Source: Pedosphaera parvula Ellin514
Lineage (GTDB): Bacteria > Verrucomicrobiota > Verrucomicrobiia > Limisphaerales > Pedosphaeraceae
Assembly (NCBI RefSeq): GCF_000172555.1
Contig: NZ_ABOX02000005.1
Location: 124,001 to 188,000, forward strand
Length of the DNA stretch: 64,000 nucleotides
Direction of reading: 5' to 3'
Shown here: piece after piece, positions 9,267-21,736 of the stretch
How the letters are laid out: the number at the start of each line of letters is the position of its first letter
Numbering within the stretch: position 1 is the first letter of the stretch
The notes under the pieces: model-generated
Told to the model about the DNA's origin: nothing
What the model saw: only the letters and a program-made list of their open reading frames with translations
Database searches by the model: none
Made by a program: the position numbers and the translations under genes

Positions 9267-10367
9267 ATGCCAACTCTAAATGTTAAACCAGCCGGTTCCT
9301 GCAAATATGACATGCTTGCCCTGGGCGAGATCATGATACGCCTTGATCCCGGCGAAGGCCGCGTACGCACCGCCCGGGAATTCAAAGCATGGGAGGGTGG
9401 TGGCGAATACAACGTTGCCCGTGGTCTGCGGCGCTGCTTTGGTTTCAAGACTGCGGTTTGCACCGCGTTTGCCGACAATGACATTGGGCGGTTGATTGAA
9501 GACTTTGTTTTGCAGGGTGGAGTCGATACCGAATTCATCAAGTGGGTCCCTTATGATGGGGTGGGCCGGACGGTTCGCAACGGTTTGAATTTTACGGAGC
9601 GCGGGTTTGGCGCGCGGGGAGCGGTGGGAATTCCAGATCGCGGCAATACTGCTGCCAGCCAGCTGAAGCCTGGCGATTTCGATTGGGATTATATTTTCGG
9701 CAAGCTCGGCGTTCGTTGGCTGCACACCGGAGGCATTTTTGCGGCGCTCTCCGATACCACCCCCAAGCTGGTCATTGAGGCGGTTCAAAAGGCGAAGCAA
9801 TATGGCACAGTGGTTTCCTATGATCTGAACTATCGGCCTTCACTTTGGAAATCGATTGGCGGCCAAAAACGTGCGCAGGAAGTAAACAAGGAAATCGCCA
9901 AATACGTGGATGTAATGATTGGGAACGAGGAAGATTTCACCGCCAGCCTGGGATTCCAAGTGGAGGGAGCAGATGAACACCTGCTGCACATCGATGTCAC
10001 GGCATTCCAAAAGATGATCGAAACAGCGGTTAAGGCTTATCCCAATTTCAAGGTCGTCGCCACAACACTGCGTGCAGCCAAGACCGCGACGATCAACGAT
10101 TGGGCGGCGATTTGCTGGATGGATGGAAAGTTTTATGAGTCGCGGCAATATCCGGACCTTGAAATTTTGGACCGGGTTGGCGGTGGAGATAGCTTTGCCA
10201 GCGGTCTGGTCTATGGGTTGATGACCACGGGAGACGCACAGAAGGCGGTGAATTACGGGGCAGCCCACGGTGCCCTGGCCATGACCACGCCGGGTGACAC
10301 TTCCATGGCTTCCAAGGATGAAGTTGAGAAGCTCATGAAGGGCGGCGGTGCCCGAGTTCAGCGATAG
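9267..10367 (+). CDS. PfkB-family sugar kinase, 2-keto-3-deoxygluconate kinase-like
   Basis: A 366-residue ribokinase-fold enzyme. The N-terminal PfkB signature contains GGGEYNVARGLRR (about residues 44-56). The C-terminal signature DRVGGGDSFASGLVYG includes the catalytic Asp at about residue 308. The opening ALGEIMIRLDPGEG resembles KDG kinases (KdgK), which phosphorylate 2-keto-3-deoxygluconate in uronate degradation. It is slightly longer than typical KdgK (about 310-340) because of an insertion before the second signature. It is monocistronic: it is preceded by 164 bp of spacer and closed by a terminator at 10401-10422. Other sugar specificity (fructokinase or 2-dehydro-3-deoxygalactonokinase-like) remains possible. 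Confidence 0.8.
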   Translation: MPTLNVKPAGSCKYDMLALGEIMIRLDPGEGRVRTAREFKAWEGGGEYNVARGLRRCFGFKTAVCTAFADNDIGRLIEDFVLQGGVDTEFIKWVPYDGVGRTVRNGLNFTERGFGARGAVGIPDRGNTAASQLKPGDFDWDYIFGKLGVRWLHTGGIFAALSDTTPKLVIEAVQKAKQYGTVVSYDLNYRPSLWKSIGGQKRAQEVNKEIAKYVDVMIGNEEDFTASLGFQVEGADEHLLHIDVTAFQKMIETAVKAYPNFKVVATTLRAAKTATINDWAAICWMDGKFYESRQYPDLEILDRVGGGDSFASGLVYGLMTTGDAQKAVNYGAAHGALAMTTPGDTSMASKDEVEKLMKGGGARVQR

Positions 10368-10400
10368 ACAACCCTCAGATTTATCCGCAGTTTAAACGAA

Positions 10401-10422
10401 CCCCGCTTGTAGCGGGGTTTTT
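10401..10422 (+). terminator. Rho-independent terminator after the sugar kinase
   Basis: A perfect 7-bp stem, CCCCGCT and AGCGGGG, with a TGT loop is followed directly by five T residues. It lies 34 bp after the kinase stop codon and separates that gene from the sensor kinase operon. Confidence 0.88.
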
Positions 10423-10460
10423 AGCATCCCCCAACAAGGTGATTGGCGATGGCTGCCTTC

Positions 10461-10486
10461 GGTGATACGCTCGTTGTAATATCACC
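10461..10486. promoter_or_regulatory. Inverted repeat upstream of the sensor kinase gene
   Basis: GGTGATA and TATCACC form a perfect 7-bp inverted repeat with a 12-bp spacer, ending 6 bp before the sensor kinase ATG. Overlapping it is the 16-mer ACGCTCGTTGTAATAT (10467-10482), which recurs with two changes at 12784-12799. The arrangement looks like an operator for autoregulation by the response regulator, but this is inference. Confidence 0.5.
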
Positions 10487-10492
10487 AGTGTC

Positions 10493-12019
10493 ATGTGGCG
10501 CAACCCAAAAAACTGTGTTCCTGCCGGGAAAGGTTTTGGCTTCCTAACAGGTGCCATGTGTGGAGTGCTGCTTTTAGGAATATTGCGGGCAGGCGGTCAA
10601 ACTCCCGTTCCGAATGACACCCAGTATTCAGTGATTAACAGTATTCCGGCGCCGTTGCATTCGGTGTTGGATGCAACCAATGCGGTTGGTTCCTGGATTT
10701 GGGACAAGGAAACGCAGGATAAGCAAACCTGCCGTTTCTGGCGAGTGTTTGAGGTTCCGCGGGATAATCCCGTAGTGCGAGCAGAAATGCGTATCACTGC
10801 GGACAATGGCTACGACGTTTTCCTGGATGGTAGGAAGGTTGGCCATGGCATTGATTGGAAATGGTTGAGCACATACGACCTCAGCTATGTTTTGCCACCG
10901 GGCAAACATGTGCTGGCAATTGAGGCTTTCAATGAAGGGCAGAAGGCCGGGTTAATTCTCGGCCTCCGAATGCAACTGACTGATGGCCGGGTGCTGGAAG
11001 TGGCTTCAGACCGTAGCTGGTATGTGGTGCCGGACGAGGGGGAAGGTTGGCGGAGCAAAGAACATCCTTTGTCCCGTTGGTATCCAGCCATAGTTGTGGG
11101 TGTGGTAGGCGACCCGCCCTGGTGGAAGACACCGGTGAGCACGGTGATCGTGCCGCCTATTCAGCCATTGACGCTGCATTTTTGGGGATCCACCTGGTTT
11201 CAGGTGGTGATACTGTCCTTATGCGGGATGGCGATGGTCATCTGTTTAAGGTTGATGGCCAAGGTGGCTTTGCAAAGCAAGGAACAAAAACTTTTGCAAC
11301 TGGAACGCAACCGTATTGCACGGGATATCCACGACGACCTGGGGGCAAGGCTGACAGAGTTGGTATTGTTAGGTGAGGTGGCACAGAGCGAGCGCAGAAC
11401 TGAACCGGAGACGCTGGCACAAATTGACCAGATTTGTGAAAGGGCGAGAGGAGTGCTGGGTGCCATTGACGAGATCGTGTGGGTGGTGAACTCCCGGCGC
11501 GATACCTTGAAGGACTTCGTTACGTACGTTTGCAAGTATGCGCAGCTTTTCCTGCGTTCCAGCAATATTCGTTGCCGCCTGGATATCGAACCGGATTTAC
11601 CCAGCATTACCTTTGATTTGCCGGTACGCAGGAACCTGCTGTTGGCCGTGAAGGAGGCCTTGAACAACGCAGCCAAGCATTCACAGGCGACCGAGCTGTT
11701 TTTGAGAGTCCATCGCGATGGTATGATGCTCAGAGTGATTGTGGAAGATAACGGGGTCGGTTTTGAACCTGCCGAGGCCAACCTCGAACGAAATGGTCTG
11801 ACGAACATGGGACAGCGAATGAAGGAATTGGGTGGGGAATACCGGGTGGTCAGTCGGCCCGGAAATGGTTCGCGCATTGAATTCCTGATGCCTCTGGAAA
11901 ATCAACGGTTGCGTTCCAATTGGTTCGGGTGGCTTTGGCGAATCTTTACGGCCAAGGTGGCGCCAGTTCAAGAAAAGGAAAAGATAACTCCAGCCGAGGC
12001 AAGTCAGCCTACGCAGTAA
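10493..12019 (+). CDS. Sensor histidine kinase (HisKA_3) with extracytoplasmic jelly-roll domain
   Basis: A 508-residue NarX/DegS-type kinase. An N-terminal hydrophobic segment (about 17-33) leads to an extracytoplasmic domain (about 45-200). Its text WIWDKETQ...FWRVFEVP...ADNGYDVFLDGRKVG resembles the beta-sandwich domains that precede alpha-L-rhamnosidases and beta-galactosidases, suggesting carbohydrate sensing. A membrane helix follows at about 236-252. The phospho-acceptor His280 lies in RDIHDDLG, and the HATPase domain has an N-box (EALNNAAKHS) and a G-box (EDNGVGF). The partner regulator starts 6 bp after the stop. The signal sensed is inferred, not shown. Confidence 0.88.
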   Translation: MWRNPKNCVPAGKGFGFLTGAMCGVLLLGILRAGGQTPVPNDTQYSVINSIPAPLHSVLDATNAVGSWIWDKETQDKQTCRFWRVFEVPRDNPVVRAEMRITADNGYDVFLDGRKVGHGIDWKWLSTYDLSYVLPPGKHVLAIEAFNEGQKAGLILGLRMQLTDGRVLEVASDRSWYVVPDEGEGWRSKEHPLSRWYPAIVVGVVGDPPWWKTPVSTVIVPPIQPLTLHFWGSTWFQVVILSLCGMAMVICLRLMAKVALQSKEQKLLQLERNRIARDIHDDLGARLTELVLLGEVAQSERRTEPETLAQIDQICERARGVLGAIDEIVWVVNSRRDTLKDFVTYVCKYAQLFLRSSNIRCRLDIEPDLPSITFDLPVRRNLLLAVKEALNNAAKHSQATELFLRVHRDGMMLRVIVEDNGVGFEPAEANLERNGLTNMGQRMKELGGEYRVVSRPGNGSRIEFLMPLENQRLRSNWFGWLWRIFTAKVAPVQEKEKITPAEASQPTQ

Positions 12020-12025
12020 TAAAAT

Positions 12026-12727
12026 ATGAAGCCGCAAGTTTCGATTCCTCAAGTTCAGCCCTCCAGCCGGGCACCTTTACGGGTGGCCCTGGTGGAAGAC
12101 CAAAAGGAAATTCGGGAAAACTGGACCCGATTGATTGAATCCTTTTCCGATTTTAAATGCGTTTGCACCTGTTCCACCGGGGAGGAAGCTTTGCGGGTCA
12201 TTCCCTCAGTGCGGCCGGATGTGATTTTGATGGATATTTTTTTACCACGCATGTCGGGAATCGAGTGCACGGCACGGTTTAAGGAGTCATTGCCCAAGAC
12301 TCAAATTATTATTTTAACGGCCGTGGATGATGATGAAATGGTGTTCCTCGCCCTCGAGGCGGGGGCCGATGGGTATTTGCTCAAACGAACGAAGCCCACG
12401 GACTTGCGGGCCGCCCTGCTGGATGTACTGAGTGGCGGGGCGCCGATGACCAGTGAGATTGCGCGACGAGTGGTTGAGTCTTTTCGGCGGGTATCGAGGA
12501 ATCGGCAGGATACCATTCGCTTAAGCGCTCGTGAAGAGGAGGTCCTGGTAATGCTGTCCAAGGGTTACTCAAACAAGGAGATAGCCGATAAGATAGATCT
12601 GAGCGTGGAAACAGTCAGGAGCCACCTTAAGCATATTTATGAAAAAATGCATGTGCGTTCCCGTACCGAGGCAGTGGCGCGTTATATGACGGCCAAGGGG
12701 AGTACCGCCGACCCGGATGATCTCTGA
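12026..12727 (+). CDS. NarL/LuxR-type response regulator
   Basis: A 233-residue DNA-binding regulator paired with the upstream kinase. The receiver domain has the acidic pair E24/D25 (ALVEDQ), phospho-acceptor Asp70 (VILMDIF), Thr in ILTA and Lys in LLKR. The C-terminal GerE helix-turn-helix (about residues 166-220) reads LSAREEEVLVMLSKGYSNKEIADKIDLSVETVRSHL. An extra 16 residues precede the receiver. The gene starts 6 bp after the kinase stop. Likely targets are its own operon and the surface-protein gene that follows, because both are preceded by the same inverted-repeat and 16-mer elements. Confidence 0.92.
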   Translation: MKPQVSIPQVQPSSRAPLRVALVEDQKEIRENWTRLIESFSDFKCVCTCSTGEEALRVIPSVRPDVILMDIFLPRMSGIECTARFKESLPKTQIIILTAVDDDEMVFLALEAGADGYLLKRTKPTDLRAALLDVLSGGAPMTSEIARRVVESFRRVSRNRQDTIRLSAREEEVLVMLSKGYSNKEIADKIDLSVETVRSHLKHIYEKMHVRSRTEAVARYMTAKGSTADPDDL

Positions 12728-12753
12728 CTCATCAGTCTGACGCGGGGAGGTAG

Positions 12754-12799
12754 TATCACCCGCTTGGGTGATAGACGTTGGAGACGCTCATTGTAGTAT
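12754..12799. promoter_or_regulatory. Inverted repeat and repeated 16-mer before the 1.4k-residue surface protein gene
   Basis: TATCACCCGCTTGGGTGATA (12754-12773) is an 8-bp perfect inverted repeat with a 4-base loop. Ten bases later comes ACGCTCATTGTAGTAT (12784-12799), which matches 14 of 16 bases of the element before the kinase gene. No T-run follows the stem, so it is a poor terminator. It is better read as a duplicated operator or promoter element controlled by the neighbouring two-component system. Confidence 0.5.
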
Positions 12800-12982
12800 G
12801 AGAGTAACTACCCCATAGGGAATTTTTGCCCTGGCTTCTGGTGCACCCAGGATTCAGTTGGGTAACGAACGCAGCGGTGATCCTAAAACAAACGATTTAA
12901 TAGGTGTTGATTGCTGTGCCGACATCAATAAACTTAGAGAGATCCTGAAAATAAATCTGAGGTGTTTTCCCCTAATTCAGCC

Positions 12983-15900
12983 ATGAAACCGACCAAATCG
13001 AACCTGCTAAAGAAATTCTTAACCCTGGGCTTTTTGACCGGGATGACAGCCTCGATGTCATGCACTCAGGCCGCCATTGTCGGGCCATACAGTCTTGATT
13101 CCGCCACGCTGCATCTGTGGCATATGGATCAGGCGACGGTGCCGGTACTGGATTCGGCAGCCGGAGGGACCAACCTGATTGGACTGCAAGGCGGAGCCAC
13201 CTTGGGCAGTCCGTCATTTACGGGGTTTGGCAATGCGCTTAACACCGTGGACGGGGGACAGGATGGGACTGCCGCTGGCACCAGAGATGCCTTATTGAGC
13301 CCTTCCACGGCCAGCCCGCCGGGGAATGTGGCGATCACGTATGCTGATGCGACTACCGGGGCCTTTACGATTGAAGCCATCGTGTGGATTGGTTTTGATC
13401 CGACCAGGAACCTTGGCACCGTTGCGAACGGGGGTAATGGGCGGAGCTCGCCACTGGAAATCGTCTCTGCCGAATCTGGTGCCAACCCGGGGCGTATCTT
13501 TCAGTTTAGAATCATACCCGTCGGCATGGTGCCTATCGGAACCGCACCGGCCACAGTGCCACTGCTCACTTTTGAAAATATTCGAGCAGTAAGTGGTAAT
13601 CAGGCAACCATCTATGCGGCCATACCCACCACCGGTCCAGACGCCATTATCACAAATAATTGGTATCATGTCGCGGTGACCTACAATGGAAGTCCCAACA
13701 CGGCGAATAACATCAAATTTTATTGGACGCTCATGGATCCAAGCCGGACGAGTGCGAACCAAATCAGCATTACTTCGGCACAAACGACACTCTCGGGGAT
13801 GAATCCACTTTCAGCCACCAGCACACCGCTGGTTATCGGCAATGAAGCACGCAATCGATCCGGCAATTTTTTGGGCGCAATTGATGAAGTGCGTATCAGC
13901 AAAGTCGAGCGCACTGCCGTGGGAATGCAGTTTACCCCGGCGAACGTAACCATCCTTACCCAGCCAGCGAGTCAATTTGTAGCTGTGGGTGATACGCTCA
14001 CACTTTCTACTGTCGCGGGCGGGGGCGCGCCGATTTCCTATCAGTGGCAATTTAATGGCAACAACCTGCCCAATGCCACCAATACCAGCCTGATGATCAC
14101 CAATGTAACGGCCAGCCAGGCGGGGAATTACCAGGTGATTGTGTCAAATCCGAACAGCAGCGCCACCAGCGCCACTGCCAACGTGCGGGTAGGCCAATTG
14201 TTCAGCGAACTATTCAATACAGGTCTGGCGGATAACCGCAGTTTGTTGCCGGGCGGGGCTACCGATCCACATTGGCAGTTGGTACAGAGCGATGATCCGG
14301 TCTTTCCTGGACCCGCAGCCATAGTGGACAGTTCACTGCCGGGAGTATGGTTGGTGAATGGGCCCAGTTCATTATGGATATCGCCCGGGGACGGAGCCAA
14401 TAATGCGGCTGGGCTTTATACTTATCGCACCAGTTTCCTGATTGATACGATGGATCCGAACAACGCGCAATTGAGTGGCAGTTGGGTGTCTGATAACCAG
14501 GGAGTGGATGTGCGGTTGAACGGCGTCAGTCTTGGATTAACCAATGCGACCTCGTTGGGAAGCTTCAGCTTTTTTACGATAACCAATGGTTTTGTGGCAG
14601 GAAGCAACACGTTGGAATGTGTGGTGTCAAACTCTGTAGGGGCAGGCATCAATCTGAGCGGGTTGAGAGCGGAAGTGCGCGGCGTAGCCCTGCCACTCTC
14701 CGCGACGCCACTCACATTGGTGAGTTCGCCGGCAAATGTTTCAACACAAGCACAGCAAAGTGTCAGTTTTTCAGTTGTCGCCACAGGCAGCGGCCCGATT
14801 ACTTATCAATGGTTCTTCGGAGCATCGCCACTCAGCGGGCAGACCAATCGTACGTTGGTGCTGAACAGACTGACAACAGCCCAATCAGGGAATTACAAGG
14901 TGGTGGTGGCAAACGGCGTCAGTTCCACGAACGCCACAGCCACACTTACTGTCACAACGCCGCCATCATTGGCCTGGTTGGGATTGAACAGTGCTGATTG
15001 GGACACGGCGACGATTAACTGGCTGGATACCGGCAGTTCTGCCAACGTGCTTTTTAGTCCGAACGACGATGTGCTTTTTGATAACAACGGCAGTGGAGCT
15101 CCAGTGGTCAATTTGACGGCGCCGCTACAGCCGAACTCGGTGGTAGTCAATGCGAGCAGCGATTATACCTTCACCTCTGCGACTGGCGGTGGGATCGCCG
15201 GCCCAGTTAACTTAACCAAGCAGGGAAGTGGCACGTTGGTTCTCGACACAGTCAATACCTACAGTGGCACGACCTTGATTCAAGGCGGCACACTTCAAGT
15301 GGGAAATGCGGACAGCAGTGGAACATTGGGCAGCAGCATGGTCAGCAATAATGCGGCCTTGGTATTCAATCGACTGGATAGCCTGACGGTGCCTAACCCC
15401 ATCGCTGGCACCGGTAGTGTGACGATGGCTGGTTCGGGAGGGCTCGTTCTTACTGGCAGCAATAGCTATACGGGACCGACCGTGATTTCCAGCGGTGTGG
15501 TAAGTGTTCGCAGGACCACGGCGTTGGGGACTGGCGACGCAGGCACCACTGTGGCCGCGGGAGCCCAGCTCTTCCTGGATGTGAACATCGACATAGCCAA
15601 TGAGCCGTTGATTTTGAATGGCACCGGGCCTGCGGGTGATGGGGCGTTGCGCAAGGGTGGCGGCGGTGTAACAACCTTTTCTGGTCCGATCACGCTGGCG
15701 AGTTATTCAGGAATCAAGCTGGATGGCAATACCACATTGAATCTGACCAACAGTGCCGGCATCACGAGTGCGGACATCAACCTCGGATTCGCGGGCGACA
15801 GCGGAAGTCGGGGAACTGTGAGTGGTCCCATAACCTTGGGCGCAGGCGCGGTTTCAGAGTTTGGTTCAGGCACCTGGGTGTTGGCAGGGACCAACAATAC

Positions 15901-17275
15901 GTGGACCGGTGGAACGACCATTACTGGCGGCACACTGCAAATCGGTGATGGCGGGAATAACGGCAGCATCGGCAATGGGCCAATCGAGGTGGATACGACA
16001 CTAACCTTCTTCAGTTCCAATAATATTACCGTAAATAGCACCATCATCGGAGGCGGTGCTTTGAATCAAATTGGGAATGGGACGCTGTTTCTGACCGGCG
16101 TTAATTCATATACCGGACCCACCCGTATTACTGGAACTGGCGCGCTGCGTCCGGGCAACAGCCAGGCAATGGGCGGTGGGACAATCACCATCGGTGGATC
16201 GCAAACCGACACCAGTCGCTTGGAACTGACGGGGGATATAATGTTGTTGAACACAATCACCATATTCCCGCGTGCGTTTGGAGTGCTGGACAATCCCGCG
16301 GACATTGTGAATGTCAGTGGAACTAATGTGATCAACGCACCAACCTCGATTGTGATACCGGGTGGCGGCAACCTGCTTACCTTTGAATCAGATAGCGGCT
16401 TGCTGGTGGTTTCAAATGGAGTCACTGCGGGAGGAGTCGGGCGGTTCCTGGTGTTAAAGGGCGCCGCAGCAGGTCAGATTTACGGCACGATCGATCAGAC
16501 CGCGGGCAATTCTCAAAATCTATACAAACTTGATGCCGGTACCTGGACGCTGTTTGGTCAGGATACCTCCTCGGGCACAACGACTGTCAGTAATGGTACG
16601 CTGGTGATCAATGGCAGTTTGGGAACGAACCTGACAACTGTCGCTGGTGGTGCATTGGGTGGCACCGGTGTTATCCTTGGGCCTGTAGTTGTCACTACGG
16701 GAGGGACACTGGCTCCGGGCACATCCATTGGCACATTGATGGTCAGCAACTCGCTTACGTTGCAGCCAGGCAGCTTTACCTCCATGGAAATCAACAAGTC
16801 AGCGGGCTTGAGCGACGCTGTGGTTGGCCTCACGAGCGCGACTTACGGTGGCACTCTGGTGGTGAGCAATCTCAGTGGCACGCTGGCGATAGGTGACAGC
16901 TTCAAATTGTTCGATGCGCTGACCTACTCTGGTACGTTTGCAAGCATCTTGCCGGCGATCCCGGGCAGCGGATTGGCATGGAATACAAACACGCTGGCAA
17001 CGGATGGCACGTTGCGCGTTGCGGCGAACACTGCTCCTCAGTCGCCGAAGTTCACCAGCATAACATTTAGCGGTGGAAATCAGCTTGTTTTCAGCGGAAC
17101 CAATGGGAGCGCCAGCGCGCAGTTCACAATTCTGTCTTCAGCAAACGTGGCGGCCCCGCTTTCAACATGGGTGCCAGTCTCAACCAACAGTTTCAATGGT
17201 TCTGGCAACTTTACTGTAACAAACACCATTAATCCGGCAGCCGGCAGCCGTTTCTACACCATTCGGGTGCCATAA
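12983..17275 (+). CDS. Giant secreted protein: LamG, Ig-like and autotransporter-associated beta-strand repeats
   Basis: About 1430 residues with a signal peptide (MKPTKSNLLKKF...TQAAI). In order: a LamG/concanavalin-like domain (about 30-310, ending GAIDEVRIS), an Ig-like domain (about 323-405), a jelly-roll region (about 465-570), a second Ig-like domain (about 575-660), then a beta-helix-like passenger (about 670-1340). The passenger has at least five repeats of the TIGR02601 kind (for example GSGTLVLDTVNTYSGTT, LTGSNSYTGPT and GTWVLAGTNNTWTGGTT). There is no C-terminal beta-barrel. The last 75 residues instead form the shared domain ending GSRFYTIRVP. A GTG at 12962 could add seven residues. 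It is probably a surface glycan-binding or adhesive protein, followed 19 bp later by the next gene. Confidence 0.85.
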   Translation: MKPTKSNLLKKFLTLGFLTGMTASMSCTQAAIVGPYSLDSATLHLWHMDQATVPVLDSAAGGTNLIGLQGGATLGSPSFTGFGNALNTVDGGQDGTAAGTRDALLSPSTASPPGNVAITYADATTGAFTIEAIVWIGFDPTRNLGTVANGGNGRSSPLEIVSAESGANPGRIFQFRIIPVGMVPIGTAPATVPLLTFENIRAVSGNQATIYAAIPTTGPDAIITNNWYHVAVTYNGSPNTANNIKFYWTLMDPSRTSANQISITSAQTTLSGMNPLSATSTPLVIGNEARNRSGNFLGAIDEVRISKVERTAVGMQFTPANVTILTQPASQFVAVGDTLTLSTVAGGGAPISYQWQFNGNNLPNATNTSLMITNVTASQAGNYQVIVSNPNSSATSATANVRVGQLFSELFNTGLADNRSLLPGGATDPHWQLVQSDDPVFPGPAAIVDSSLPGVWLVNGPSSLWISPGDGANNAAGLYTYRTSFLIDTMDPNNAQLSGSWVSDNQGVDVRLNGVSLGLTNATSLGSFSFFTITNGFVAGSNTLECVVSNSVGAGINLSGLRAEVRGVALPLSATPLTLVSSPANVSTQAQQSVSFSVVATGSGPITYQWFFGASPLSGQTNRTLVLNRLTTAQSGNYKVVVANGVSSTNATATLTVTTPPSLAWLGLNSADWDTATINWLDTGSSANVLFSPNDDVLFDNNGSGAPVVNLTAPLQPNSVVVNASSDYTFTSATGGGIAGPVNLTKQGSGTLVLDTVNTYSGTTLIQGGTLQVGNADSSGTLGSSMVSNNAALVFNRLDSLTVPNPIAGTGSVTMAGSGGLVLTGSNSYTGPTVISSGVVSVRRTTALGTGDAGTTVAAGAQLFLDVNIDIANEPLILNGTGPAGDGALRKGGGGVTTFSGPITLASYSGIKLDGNTTLNLTNSAGITSADINLGFAGDSGSRGTVSGPITLGAGAVSEFGSGTWVLAGTNNTWTGGTTITGGTLQIGDGGNNGSIGNGPIEVDTTLTFFSSNNITVNSTIIGGGALNQIGNGTLFLTGVNSYTGPTRITGTGALRPGNSQAMGGGTITIGGSQTDTSRLELTGDIMLLNTITIFPRAFGVLDNPADIVNVSGTNVINAPTSIVIPGGGNLLTFESDSGLLVVSNGVTAGGVGRFLVLKGAAAGQIYGTIDQTAGNSQNLYKLDAGTWTLFGQDTSSGTTTVSNGTLVINGSLGTNLTTVAGGALGGTGVILGPVVVTTGGTLAPGTSIGTLMVSNSLTLQPGSFTSMEINKSAGLSDAVVGLTSATYGGTLVVSNLSGTLAIGDSFKLFDALTYSGTFASILPAIPGSGLAWNTNTLATDGTLRVAANTAPQSPKFTSITFSGGNQLVFSGTNGSASAQFTILSSANVAAPLSTWVPVSTNSFNGSGNFTVTNTINPAAGSRFYTIRVP

Positions 17276-20207: not shown

Positions 20208-21368
20208 TCAGTGGTGCGGGAATTTCCGGTTTTTTGCCCGATATTGATTGGGGGAAAGACCAGCTTTCTTTTTGAAGGCAGTGCTGAGATACTCCACATG
20301 CTCAAACCCTGTCCGTTCCGCGATCGTGGCCAGATTCAATTCCGTTTCCGTCAGCAACTCTTTGACCCGGTTCATGCGCACCCGGATGATTTCCTCATGC
20401 GGCGTGTGTCCCAAAATCTTTTTGAAGAGGCCTTCGAATACGCGGCGCGATAGCGGCACAACCTTCAAAACCGCCTCGATGTTAATTTGTTCGTGGGCAT
20501 GTTCCCGGATGAAGCGTACCGCCCTGGCAATATGCCGGTCCTCGATGGCCAGCACATCCGTGGACTGACGGGTGGCCACCCCGAGCGGAGTGATCAAATG
20601 CGCTGTCGGCGGCACCTTCCGGCCTGACATCATCTGATCCAACAGCGCCGCCGCTTCGTAGCCGGTGCGCTGGGTGTTGGGGATGACGCTGGAGAGCGGC
20701 GGAGACGAAAGATCGCAGAGCAGCGTGTCATCATCCACTCCAATTACTGCCACCTCATCCGGCACTGCCAGGCTGGCATTGCGACAGGCATCCAGCACCT
20801 GCTGGCCCCGAATGTCGTAACACGCCATGATTGCCACCGGTTTCGGCAATTTGACCAGCCATTGGGCAATTTCAGCAACCTGGTTTTCCAATGGTGCCAC
20901 CGGCGAAATGGTTGAGCGATAGTGTTGGCATTCGCGGCCCGCCTGATGAATGGCCTTTTCAAAGTGTTCCGCACGCCAGTTGGACCAGTTGAAACGGGCA
21001 TCGCCACAAAAGCCGAAATGTTTGAAGCCGCGATCGAGCAGATGCTCGGCCGCCAGTCGGGCAATATCCCGGTCATCCGTTTCGACCCAGGGCAGGGACG
21101 GCAGCATCCGTGCCGCACTCACATCCACGGCGGGTAGACCGGAGGCTGCGACAGAGCGCGCAATTTCCTGGTTTTCGATGCGGGCAATAATTCCATCCCC
21201 CTGCCAATTTGCCAGCCAACCCGGTGGAATATCCCCTCGACCTTGTTCGGGAAGATAAAATGACCAGCGGGAATTTTCGCGAATATACCGGACAACACCT
21301 TGGAGCACCCCTCGTGCGTAAGCATTCGAAGTTTCGATTAATAGCGCGACTTCCCTGCGTTTGCTCAT
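20208..21368 (-). CDS. XylR-like AraC-family regulator with LacI-type sensor
   Basis: About 386 residues from ATG at 21368 (MSKRREVALLIETSNAYARG); a start 10 codons earlier is possible. The N-terminal two thirds form a periplasmic-binding-protein-like sugar sensor (VNTDDRDIARLAAEHLLDRGFKHFGFCG-type text, with DEVAVIGVDDD). The last about 100 residues are an AraC helix-turn-helix pair (NLATIAERTGFEHVEYLSTAFKKKAGLSPNQYR). This is the architecture of E. coli XylR, and many verrucomicrobial paralogues sit beside glycan loci. It is divergent from the prepilin gene at 21737 and convergent with the upstream operon. Likely regulatory target: the prepilin/giant-protein unit to its right. Confidence 0.88.
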   Translation of the reverse strand: MSKRREVALLIETSNAYARGVLQGVVRYIRENSRWSFYLPEQGRGDIPPGWLANWQGDGIIARIENQEIARSVAASGLPAVDVSAARMLPSLPWVETDDRDIARLAAEHLLDRGFKHFGFCGDARFNWSNWRAEHFEKAIHQAGRECQHYRSTISPVAPLENQVAEIAQWLVKLPKPVAIMACYDIRGQQVLDACRNASLAVPDEVAVIGVDDDTLLCDLSSPPLSSVIPNTQRTGYEAAALLDQMMSGRKVPPTAHLITPLGVATRQSTDVLAIEDRHIARAVRFIREHAHEQINIEAVLKVVPLSRRVFEGLFKKILGHTPHEEIIRVRMNRVKELLTETELNLATIAERTGFEHVEYLSTAFKKKAGLSPNQYRAKNRKFPHH

Positions 21369-21736
21369 GTAATAACTTGCGGAACGATCATCAGCCACCA
21401 GTACCCATCAAGCCACGATTTTGAATATTTCATGTCGTCCACTCCCAACCCGAGCGTTCTGGCGCAGCCTGAATGGGGAATTTCGTAACTATCGAATAAC
21501 AGCAGAAGACCATGGCAGTCAATGGCTTTGTCGCCCACGTCCGCCCGTGGTGCAGGTGGGCGAAAAGTCTGGCGGTGAAAAAGCTTAAAAGATTTGCGCG
21601 AAAGCTCATTCACAAACTCCCTCCAAATCCTTTAGCTTTACTGCGATCCCAAAAAGTAAAGTTCTGACGCGAGTCAGTGTCTGCGACTATTCAGCAGCGC
21701 GGACATGGCGTCATAATTGGAAGAAATCTTAGGCAA
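21369..21736. promoter_or_regulatory. Divergent promoter region with an inverted repeat at 21531-21563
   Basis: This is non-coding DNA between the XylR-like regulator and the prepilin gene. It contains TCGCCCAC and GTGGGCGA as perfect 8-bp arms separated by 17 bp, with a nested CCACG/CGTGG pair. It could be the regulator's binding site or an mRNA hairpin; nothing decides between them. Confidence 0.4.

Follow-up and report, generated by a model that had tools for sequence, protein, structure and literature searches.

What connects a two-component system with the giant surface-protein gene that follows it is the question raised by a locus of Pedosphaera parvula Ellin514. The locus was analyzed in a window, that is, the whole stretch of 64,000 nucleotides examined here (contig NZ_ABOX02000005.1, positions 124,001 to 188,000; G000:C5:124001-188000 in our coding of genomes and contigs), from a genome of 7.41 Mb in 102 contigs. 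The genes lie in the order pfkB-type kinase, histidine kinase, NarL-type response regulator, and 1430-amino-acid (aa) Ig/PATR surface protein. The arrangement common to the regions before the kinase gene and before the surface-protein gene, and to the corresponding regions of relatives, is a dyad, ATCMCC-N6-GGKGAT, at 10426-10443 (in E1, 10426-10466) and 12755-12772 (E2). Judged from the sequences compared below, we consider it probable that E1 and E2 are operators of the adjacent regulator, which would activate the surface-protein gene and probably autoregulate the kinase operon. The features concerned are as follows.

10426-10443: E1 dyad, ATCCCC-CAACAA-GGTGAT, upstream of the kinase operon; ranks second among the N6 dyads of the window (score 20.3) and is one of eight places in the genome
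10461-10466, + strand: further half-site of E1, GGTGAT, which is the left arm of the first palindrome described below; offsets 0/12/35 as in related locus L098
12755-12772: E2 dyad, ATCACC-CGCTTG-GGTGAT, 27 nt 3' of the regulator gene; best N6 dyad of the window, with the maximal score of 21.6
12794-12799, + strand: proposed -10 hexamer, TAGTAT, 21 nt 3' of the E2 dyad; 4/6 to TATAAT; end of the second 16-mer described below
9267-10367, + strand (the same as the histidine kinase): pfkB-type kinase gene, from the list of open reading frames (ORFs) and Pfam
10493-12019, + strand: histidine kinase, HisKA_3 (E value, 1.2e-8) and HATPase_c (1.8e-11), both above the Pfam cut-off; alternative start ATG 10556; lectin-like sensor at about 10691-11125
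12026-12727, + strand: response regulator, receiver (Response_reg; E value, 3.2e-26) followed by a GerE (NarL/LuxR-type) DNA-binding domain (5.2e-19), both above the Pfam cut-off
12983-17275, + strand: Ig/PATR surface protein, 1430 aa, secreted, the proposed target; Pfam assignment, with homologues in loci L114 and L132

Element shared by the two intergenic regions

A first-pass annotation of the window had described a duplicated element composed of GGTGATA/TATCACC inverted repeats, each accompanied by a 16-mer. The letters are present as described: GGTGATA (10461-10467) and TATCACC (10480-10486) end 6 nt before the kinase ATG at 10493, TATCACC (12754-12760) and GGTGATA (12767-12773) form the second palindrome, and the 16-mers ACGCTCGTTGTAATAT (10467-10482) and ACGCTCATTGTAGTAT (12784-12799) are identical at 14 of 16 positions. 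The second 16-mer ends 183 nt before the ATG at 12983, in agreement with the distance of about 180 bp given for the giant-protein gene. The duplication holds in that both promoter regions share an operator-like dyad, but the two palindromes are arranged differently, the first with its arms outward and a 12-nt gap, the second with its arms inward and a 6-nt gap. The 12-nt-gapped palindrome at 10461-10486 is not the form conserved in relatives. The E1 dyad, which had been missed, begins 35 bp upstream of it. The third-best N6 dyad of the window scores 11.6, compared with 21.6 for E2 and 20.3 for E1.

Exact GGTGATA-N4-24-TATCACC occurs at two places in the genome, one in the window and one inside a 1317-aa ORF, and TATCACC-N2-24-GGTGATA occurs at one. 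By our estimate about 0.6 of each would be expected by chance in 7.41 Mb, so these counts alone are unremarkable; the striking part is that both palindromes lie inside 2.3 kb. The other genomic GGTGATA-N15-TATCACC (C1:57234) is inside an ORF and was treated as a chance occurrence. The 16-mer was rejected as an operator or conserved signal. In its IUPAC form it occurs genome-wide only at the two places of the window, with up to two mismatches it has 9 genome places compared with 12 for the reversed control, and its matches among 182 fetched loci number 7, each a copy of the window's own locus. Dinucleotide shuffles of the two intergenic regions gave a 14/16 match in 2 of 300 cases.

Recurrence at related loci

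The 8 genomes of the family yielded 12 loci with a full-sensor kinase, the window's included. At 8 of the other 11 loci, a strong motif lies either 3' of the regulator gene or ahead of the cluster's first gene. Ten sites from relatives and paralogues align without gaps; their half-sites ATCACC, GGTGAT, (T)TACC, and GGGGAT are spaced with a period of 12 bp. A 48-column model was built from these ten sites, with E1 and E2 left out, and 150 candidates were scored per genome. Applied to the 8 genomes in full, it produced 22 hits at an E value of ≤1e-4, including the 10 training sites, and 18 of the 22 share a contig with a full-sensor kinase. Among its 17 hits in the window, E2 ranks first and parts of E1 rank second and fourth.

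Related loci were also retrieved with the response regulator alone, and the best 80 of 275 were kept; they are mostly labeled Verrucomicrobia (Limisphaerales or subdivision 3), with several from Pedosphaera sp. Dyads were scored with a half-site matrix from 41 sites (8 of which had trained the 48-column matrix) and a 6-nt spacer, at thresholds of 11.5 and 9. A dyad scoring at least 11.5 lies within 300 nt 3' of the regulator stop codon in 29 of 58 Limisphaerales loci, compared with 37 of 2323 other 300-nt windows of the same loci; the loci of more distant regulators have none at this threshold (0/20). Spacers of 0 to 14 nt other than 6 give only 0 to 3 of the 58 loci. The 29/58 count is partly circular because several of the 41 matrix sites lie in the windows counted. 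The count from loci lacking a 48-column matrix hit, 15 of 38 at the same threshold, is outside the matrix-training loci and is not circular; it includes the near duplicates L134 and L135. At a score of at least 20, the 48-column matrix has 30 listed hits, with up to 4 per locus and 21 of the 80 loci represented; all of these are on the strand of the regulator, and 6 are training sites. The dyad recurs at homologous loci and is therefore an operator-like element tied to this two-component family.

Six loci (L131, L134, L135, L137, L141, and L149) carry the dyad both before the kinase gene and after the regulator gene. In L141 and L131, a near-identical operator and promoter occur at the two places in opposite orientations. 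The half-sites of L098, whose regulator is the nearest to the window's on the tree, stand at offsets 0/12/35, identical to those of E1. In the 1.80 Mb of fetched, partly overlapping sequence, E1 and L098 are the only distinct places with these offsets, a pattern composed after both had been seen.

Genome-wide distribution

The first-pass proposal was open to refutation if the element were common at random genome positions. ATCMCC-N6-GGKGAT, a pattern composed after ATCCCC-N6-GGTGAT had been seen in E1, occurs at 8 places in the P. parvula genome and at 52 in the 8 genomes, compared with 0 for the reversed-pattern control. Of the 52 dyads, 14 have a HisKA_3 kinase no more than 5 kb away, where about 1.3 would be expected by coverage; of the 8 in P. 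parvula, 4 are this close to one and 6 have one within 15 kb. One of the two kinase-distant places of this genome, C1:55835, is inside an ORF.

These counts bear on whether the likeness of E1 and E2 arose by chance or by local duplication and has no regulatory role. The differing arrangement of the two palindromes and the absence of the 16-mer from every other fetched locus would fit such an origin, but the dyad recurs at matching positions with a single spacer and is found at 8 genome places against none for the control. This explanation is hard to hold for the dyads and, for the element as a whole, very improbable; it may still hold for the 16-mer.

At G000:C25:25785-25802 (L180 2786-2803), the other kinase-distant place, on a contig with no kinase hit, a perfect dyad stands about 100 nt before a secreted-protein ORF, where a longer hairpin is also possible. 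At G000:C2:211241-211258 (L179 2742-2759), a dyad of the GGGGAT form stands 163 nt 3' of the regulator gene of another kinase-regulator pair, and the same 18 letters occur near a kinase at G004:C21:42027. Because the C2 pair and the kinase-near site in G004 carry the same GGGGAT-form dyad, further paralogues may use related operators.

Promoter downstream of the dyad

A TA...T signal occupies columns 64-67 in 31 of the 41 sites, where the median 4-nt bin holds 1. For the analyses of -10 spacing and of regulator residues, L135 (a near duplicate) and L154 (a weak, different site) were dropped and a dyad score of at least 9 was required. Among 18 single-dyad loci outside the 41-site set, 12 match TATAAT at 4/6 or better 19 to 23 nt after the dyad, compared with 0 to 4 in non-overlapping 5-nt bins. 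Because TAGTAT at the end of the second 16-mer stands 21 nt after E2, this end is probably a promoter -10 element. E2 is predicted with confidence to be an operator-promoter. At E1, TGTCAT (4/6) is found when the distance is taken from the half-site at 10461.

The position of most sites, directly 3' of the regulator gene and on its strand, would also suit an RNA element acting as a terminator, processing site, or leader, with its hairpin either at the 3' terminus of the kinase-regulator transcript or within the leader of the gene that follows, and E2 is able to fold into an 8-bp hairpin with a 4-nt loop. We regard this as improbable. Rfam has 0 matches at gathering score in the 64-kb window, and folding of the + strand is near that of shuffles (z of -0.75 to -0.83), with E2 on the minus strand reaching z of -2.03 (8 of 200 shuffles as good). 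Furthermore, the dyads have a C/T mismatch at pair 4-15 in 14 of 41 cases, a -10-like hexamer follows the dyad, and some sites lie 2.5 to 7 kb upstream of the regulator. A separate terminator-like structure, a 9-bp stem followed by T residues, stands in our reading 3' of the pfkB gene at 10399-10422; the scan of 10360-13000 did not flag it.

E1 is confidently a dyad, and its regulatory output, sign, and direction are uncertain. With the upstream pfkB gene reading in the same direction, forward autoregulation is the likeliest output.

Regulator reading the dyad

Among 123 variable columns, the one with the top z for dyad positions 7-8 (6.3; next column, 5.9) is residue 180 of the regulator fragment, which lies in the recognition helix (TV-R-SH in the window). 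Of the seven regulators with R at this residue, six have CG or CC at dyad positions 7-8. The trait was placed on a receiver-domain tree for 35 of 36 rows (L153 gave no helix match), and most of the helix-operator correlation reflects how three clades of this tree differ. Covariation was rejected as proof of the binder, with too few independent changes, and is retained as support only.

These results bear on whether E1 and E2 are true operators of a regulator whose gene lies elsewhere, such as a sugar-responsive LacI/AraC-type protein. Binding by the adjacent regulator is deduced from sequence, the helix-operator correlation is mostly the three-clade difference, and another sugar-type regulator is encoded at 20208-21398 on the - strand, downstream of the surface-protein genes (AraC-type, with an XylR/LacI-like sugar-binding domain). 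On the other side, the loci were retrieved by the response regulator alone and the dyad sits beside that very gene, residue 180 is the top column for dyad positions 7-8, and the symmetry of the dyad matches the expectation for a NarL-type dimer. A reader of the element encoded elsewhere is unlikely in our judgment, and the adjacent NarL-type regulator is preferred.

Several observations weigh against this assignment or restrict it. The strong motif is lacking at 3 of the 11 full-sensor kinase loci (G001:C268, G005:C65, and G005:C17). At a score of 9, 35 of 58 loci are positive after the regulator and 23 have no dyad, and L101 is among the dyad-less loci despite a regulator identity of 77%. The window E values of the ten-site model are modest (0.16 for E2; 0.89 and 2.2 for parts of E1), and neither E1 nor E2 is among the 8 matches listed for their own genome by the 48-column model, for which 150 of 3815 candidates were scored. 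A dyad before the kinase is rare (7 of 54 loci at a score of 9) and occurs in 1 of 17 control loci too. In L134, L137, and L141, the kinase is preceded by a divergent gene, so pre-kinase sites may act on that neighbor instead. Taken spacer by spacer, the TATAAT profile is noisy, peaking at 2.39 (22 nt) but reaching 2.33 at 43 nt; E1 lacks a good -10 at 19 to 23 nt (best, 3/6); and a promoter scan of 10360-13000 found no consensus sigma-70 promoter, which is compatible with an activator-dependent promoter and no proof of one. Residue 180 is outside the top 10 columns for dyad position 12. The residue-operator match comes down to 1 to 3 independent pairs on supported branches of the receiver-domain tree, none of them contrary; this is too few for a test of covariation.

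Target genes and sensor

The dyad is followed by a gene for a homologue of the window's giant protein in L114 (45% over 415 aa, at the N terminus) and in L132 (33-35%). In nine downstream proteins scanned, GH78 alpha-L-rhamnosidases were found downstream of the operator in L108 and L110, a GH76 enzyme in L100, and LamG/Ig/PATR proteins in L099, L114, and L132; those of L140, L119, and L103 have only Ig, PKD, fn3, or DUF642 domains. The tie between the two-component system and the giant protein, as first proposed, is well supported by comparison, but the element on which it was based had to be corrected.

Against the PDB, the sensor region (10691-11125) matches lectin chains with E values of 1.6e-14 to 2.1e-14 and the N-terminal part of Rhamnosidase B with 4.1e-4. 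One matched entry, 6KBJ, is mentioned in a paper about a Pleurotus ostreatus lectin. PF08531, the alpha-L-rhamnosidase N-terminal domain, reaches 14.7 bits on the sensor (cut-off, 25; E value, 0.028). The ligand of the kinase sensor may be a glycan, perhaps of the rhamnose or galactose type. Such a signal on the lectin-like domain would lead to phosphorylation of the regulator, which would then form a dimer on ATCACC-N6-GGTGAT. Since the E2 dyad ends 21 nt upstream of the -10 hexamer, the dimer would meet the -35 region there and activate the Ig/PATR surface-protein gene, and the E1 dyad with its third half-site, just upstream of the kinase-regulator operon, would probably serve autoregulation.

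A broader and more tentative reading is that Limisphaerales possess a large and diversified family of two-component systems for glycan sensing, which share one readable operator code, ATCMCC-N6-GGKGAT, with a fixed distance to the -10 element and clade-specific central letters that follow residue 180; we hold this to be possible rather than probable. In such a code, R at residue 180 might go with CG, G with TA, and C mostly with TG or TA ending in TTTC. It is likewise conceivable, at about the same strength, that the sensor is related to the domain with which GH78 rhamnosidases, enzymes that some of these systems adjoin, bind their substrate. If true, the code would allow operators and target surface-protein or glycosidase genes to be assigned to many orphan regulators by sequence alone.

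Comparison with known systems

Our searches of open-licence literature turned up no described operator or regulon for two-component systems of this verrucomicrobial order (Limisphaerales). As a kind, the system is ordinary; judged from those searches, its operator family appears to be undescribed. The dyad offers a testable handle on how giant autotransporter-like surface proteins and glycosidases are switched on in bacteria that are poorly cultured, and the regulator-operator pairs lend themselves to the study of specificity among paralogous NarL-type regulators.

NarL of Escherichia coli, according to one account (PMC4549865), prefers inverted heptamers 2 bp apart (7-2-7) and binds them as a dimer through its output domain. 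Like NarL, the regulators described here combine a receiver with a GerE-type domain and have an inverted repeat as predicted dimer site. Unlike 7-2-7 sites, the hexamers ATCACC and GGTGAT stand 6 bp apart, often as two dyads on a 12-bp period, and the 7-2-7 arrangement was not found among the 58 loci, in which the 6-nt spacer prevails as counted above (29/58, against 0 to 3 for any other from 0 to 14). A likeness to ComA and other LuxR/FixJ/NarL-type regulators is that a recognition-helix residue goes with operator letters in the Limisphaerales loci; the element is a different one. In Bacteroides polysaccharide utilization loci, hybrid two-component systems (HTCS) control carbohydrate-related surface genes (PMC11253607). 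What the P. parvula locus shares with these is that a two-component system is predicted to control carbohydrate-related surface genes located next to its regulator; unlike HTCS, which unite sensor kinase and regulator in one protein, it has two ORFs, 10493-12019 and 12026-12727, and a NarL-type regulator.
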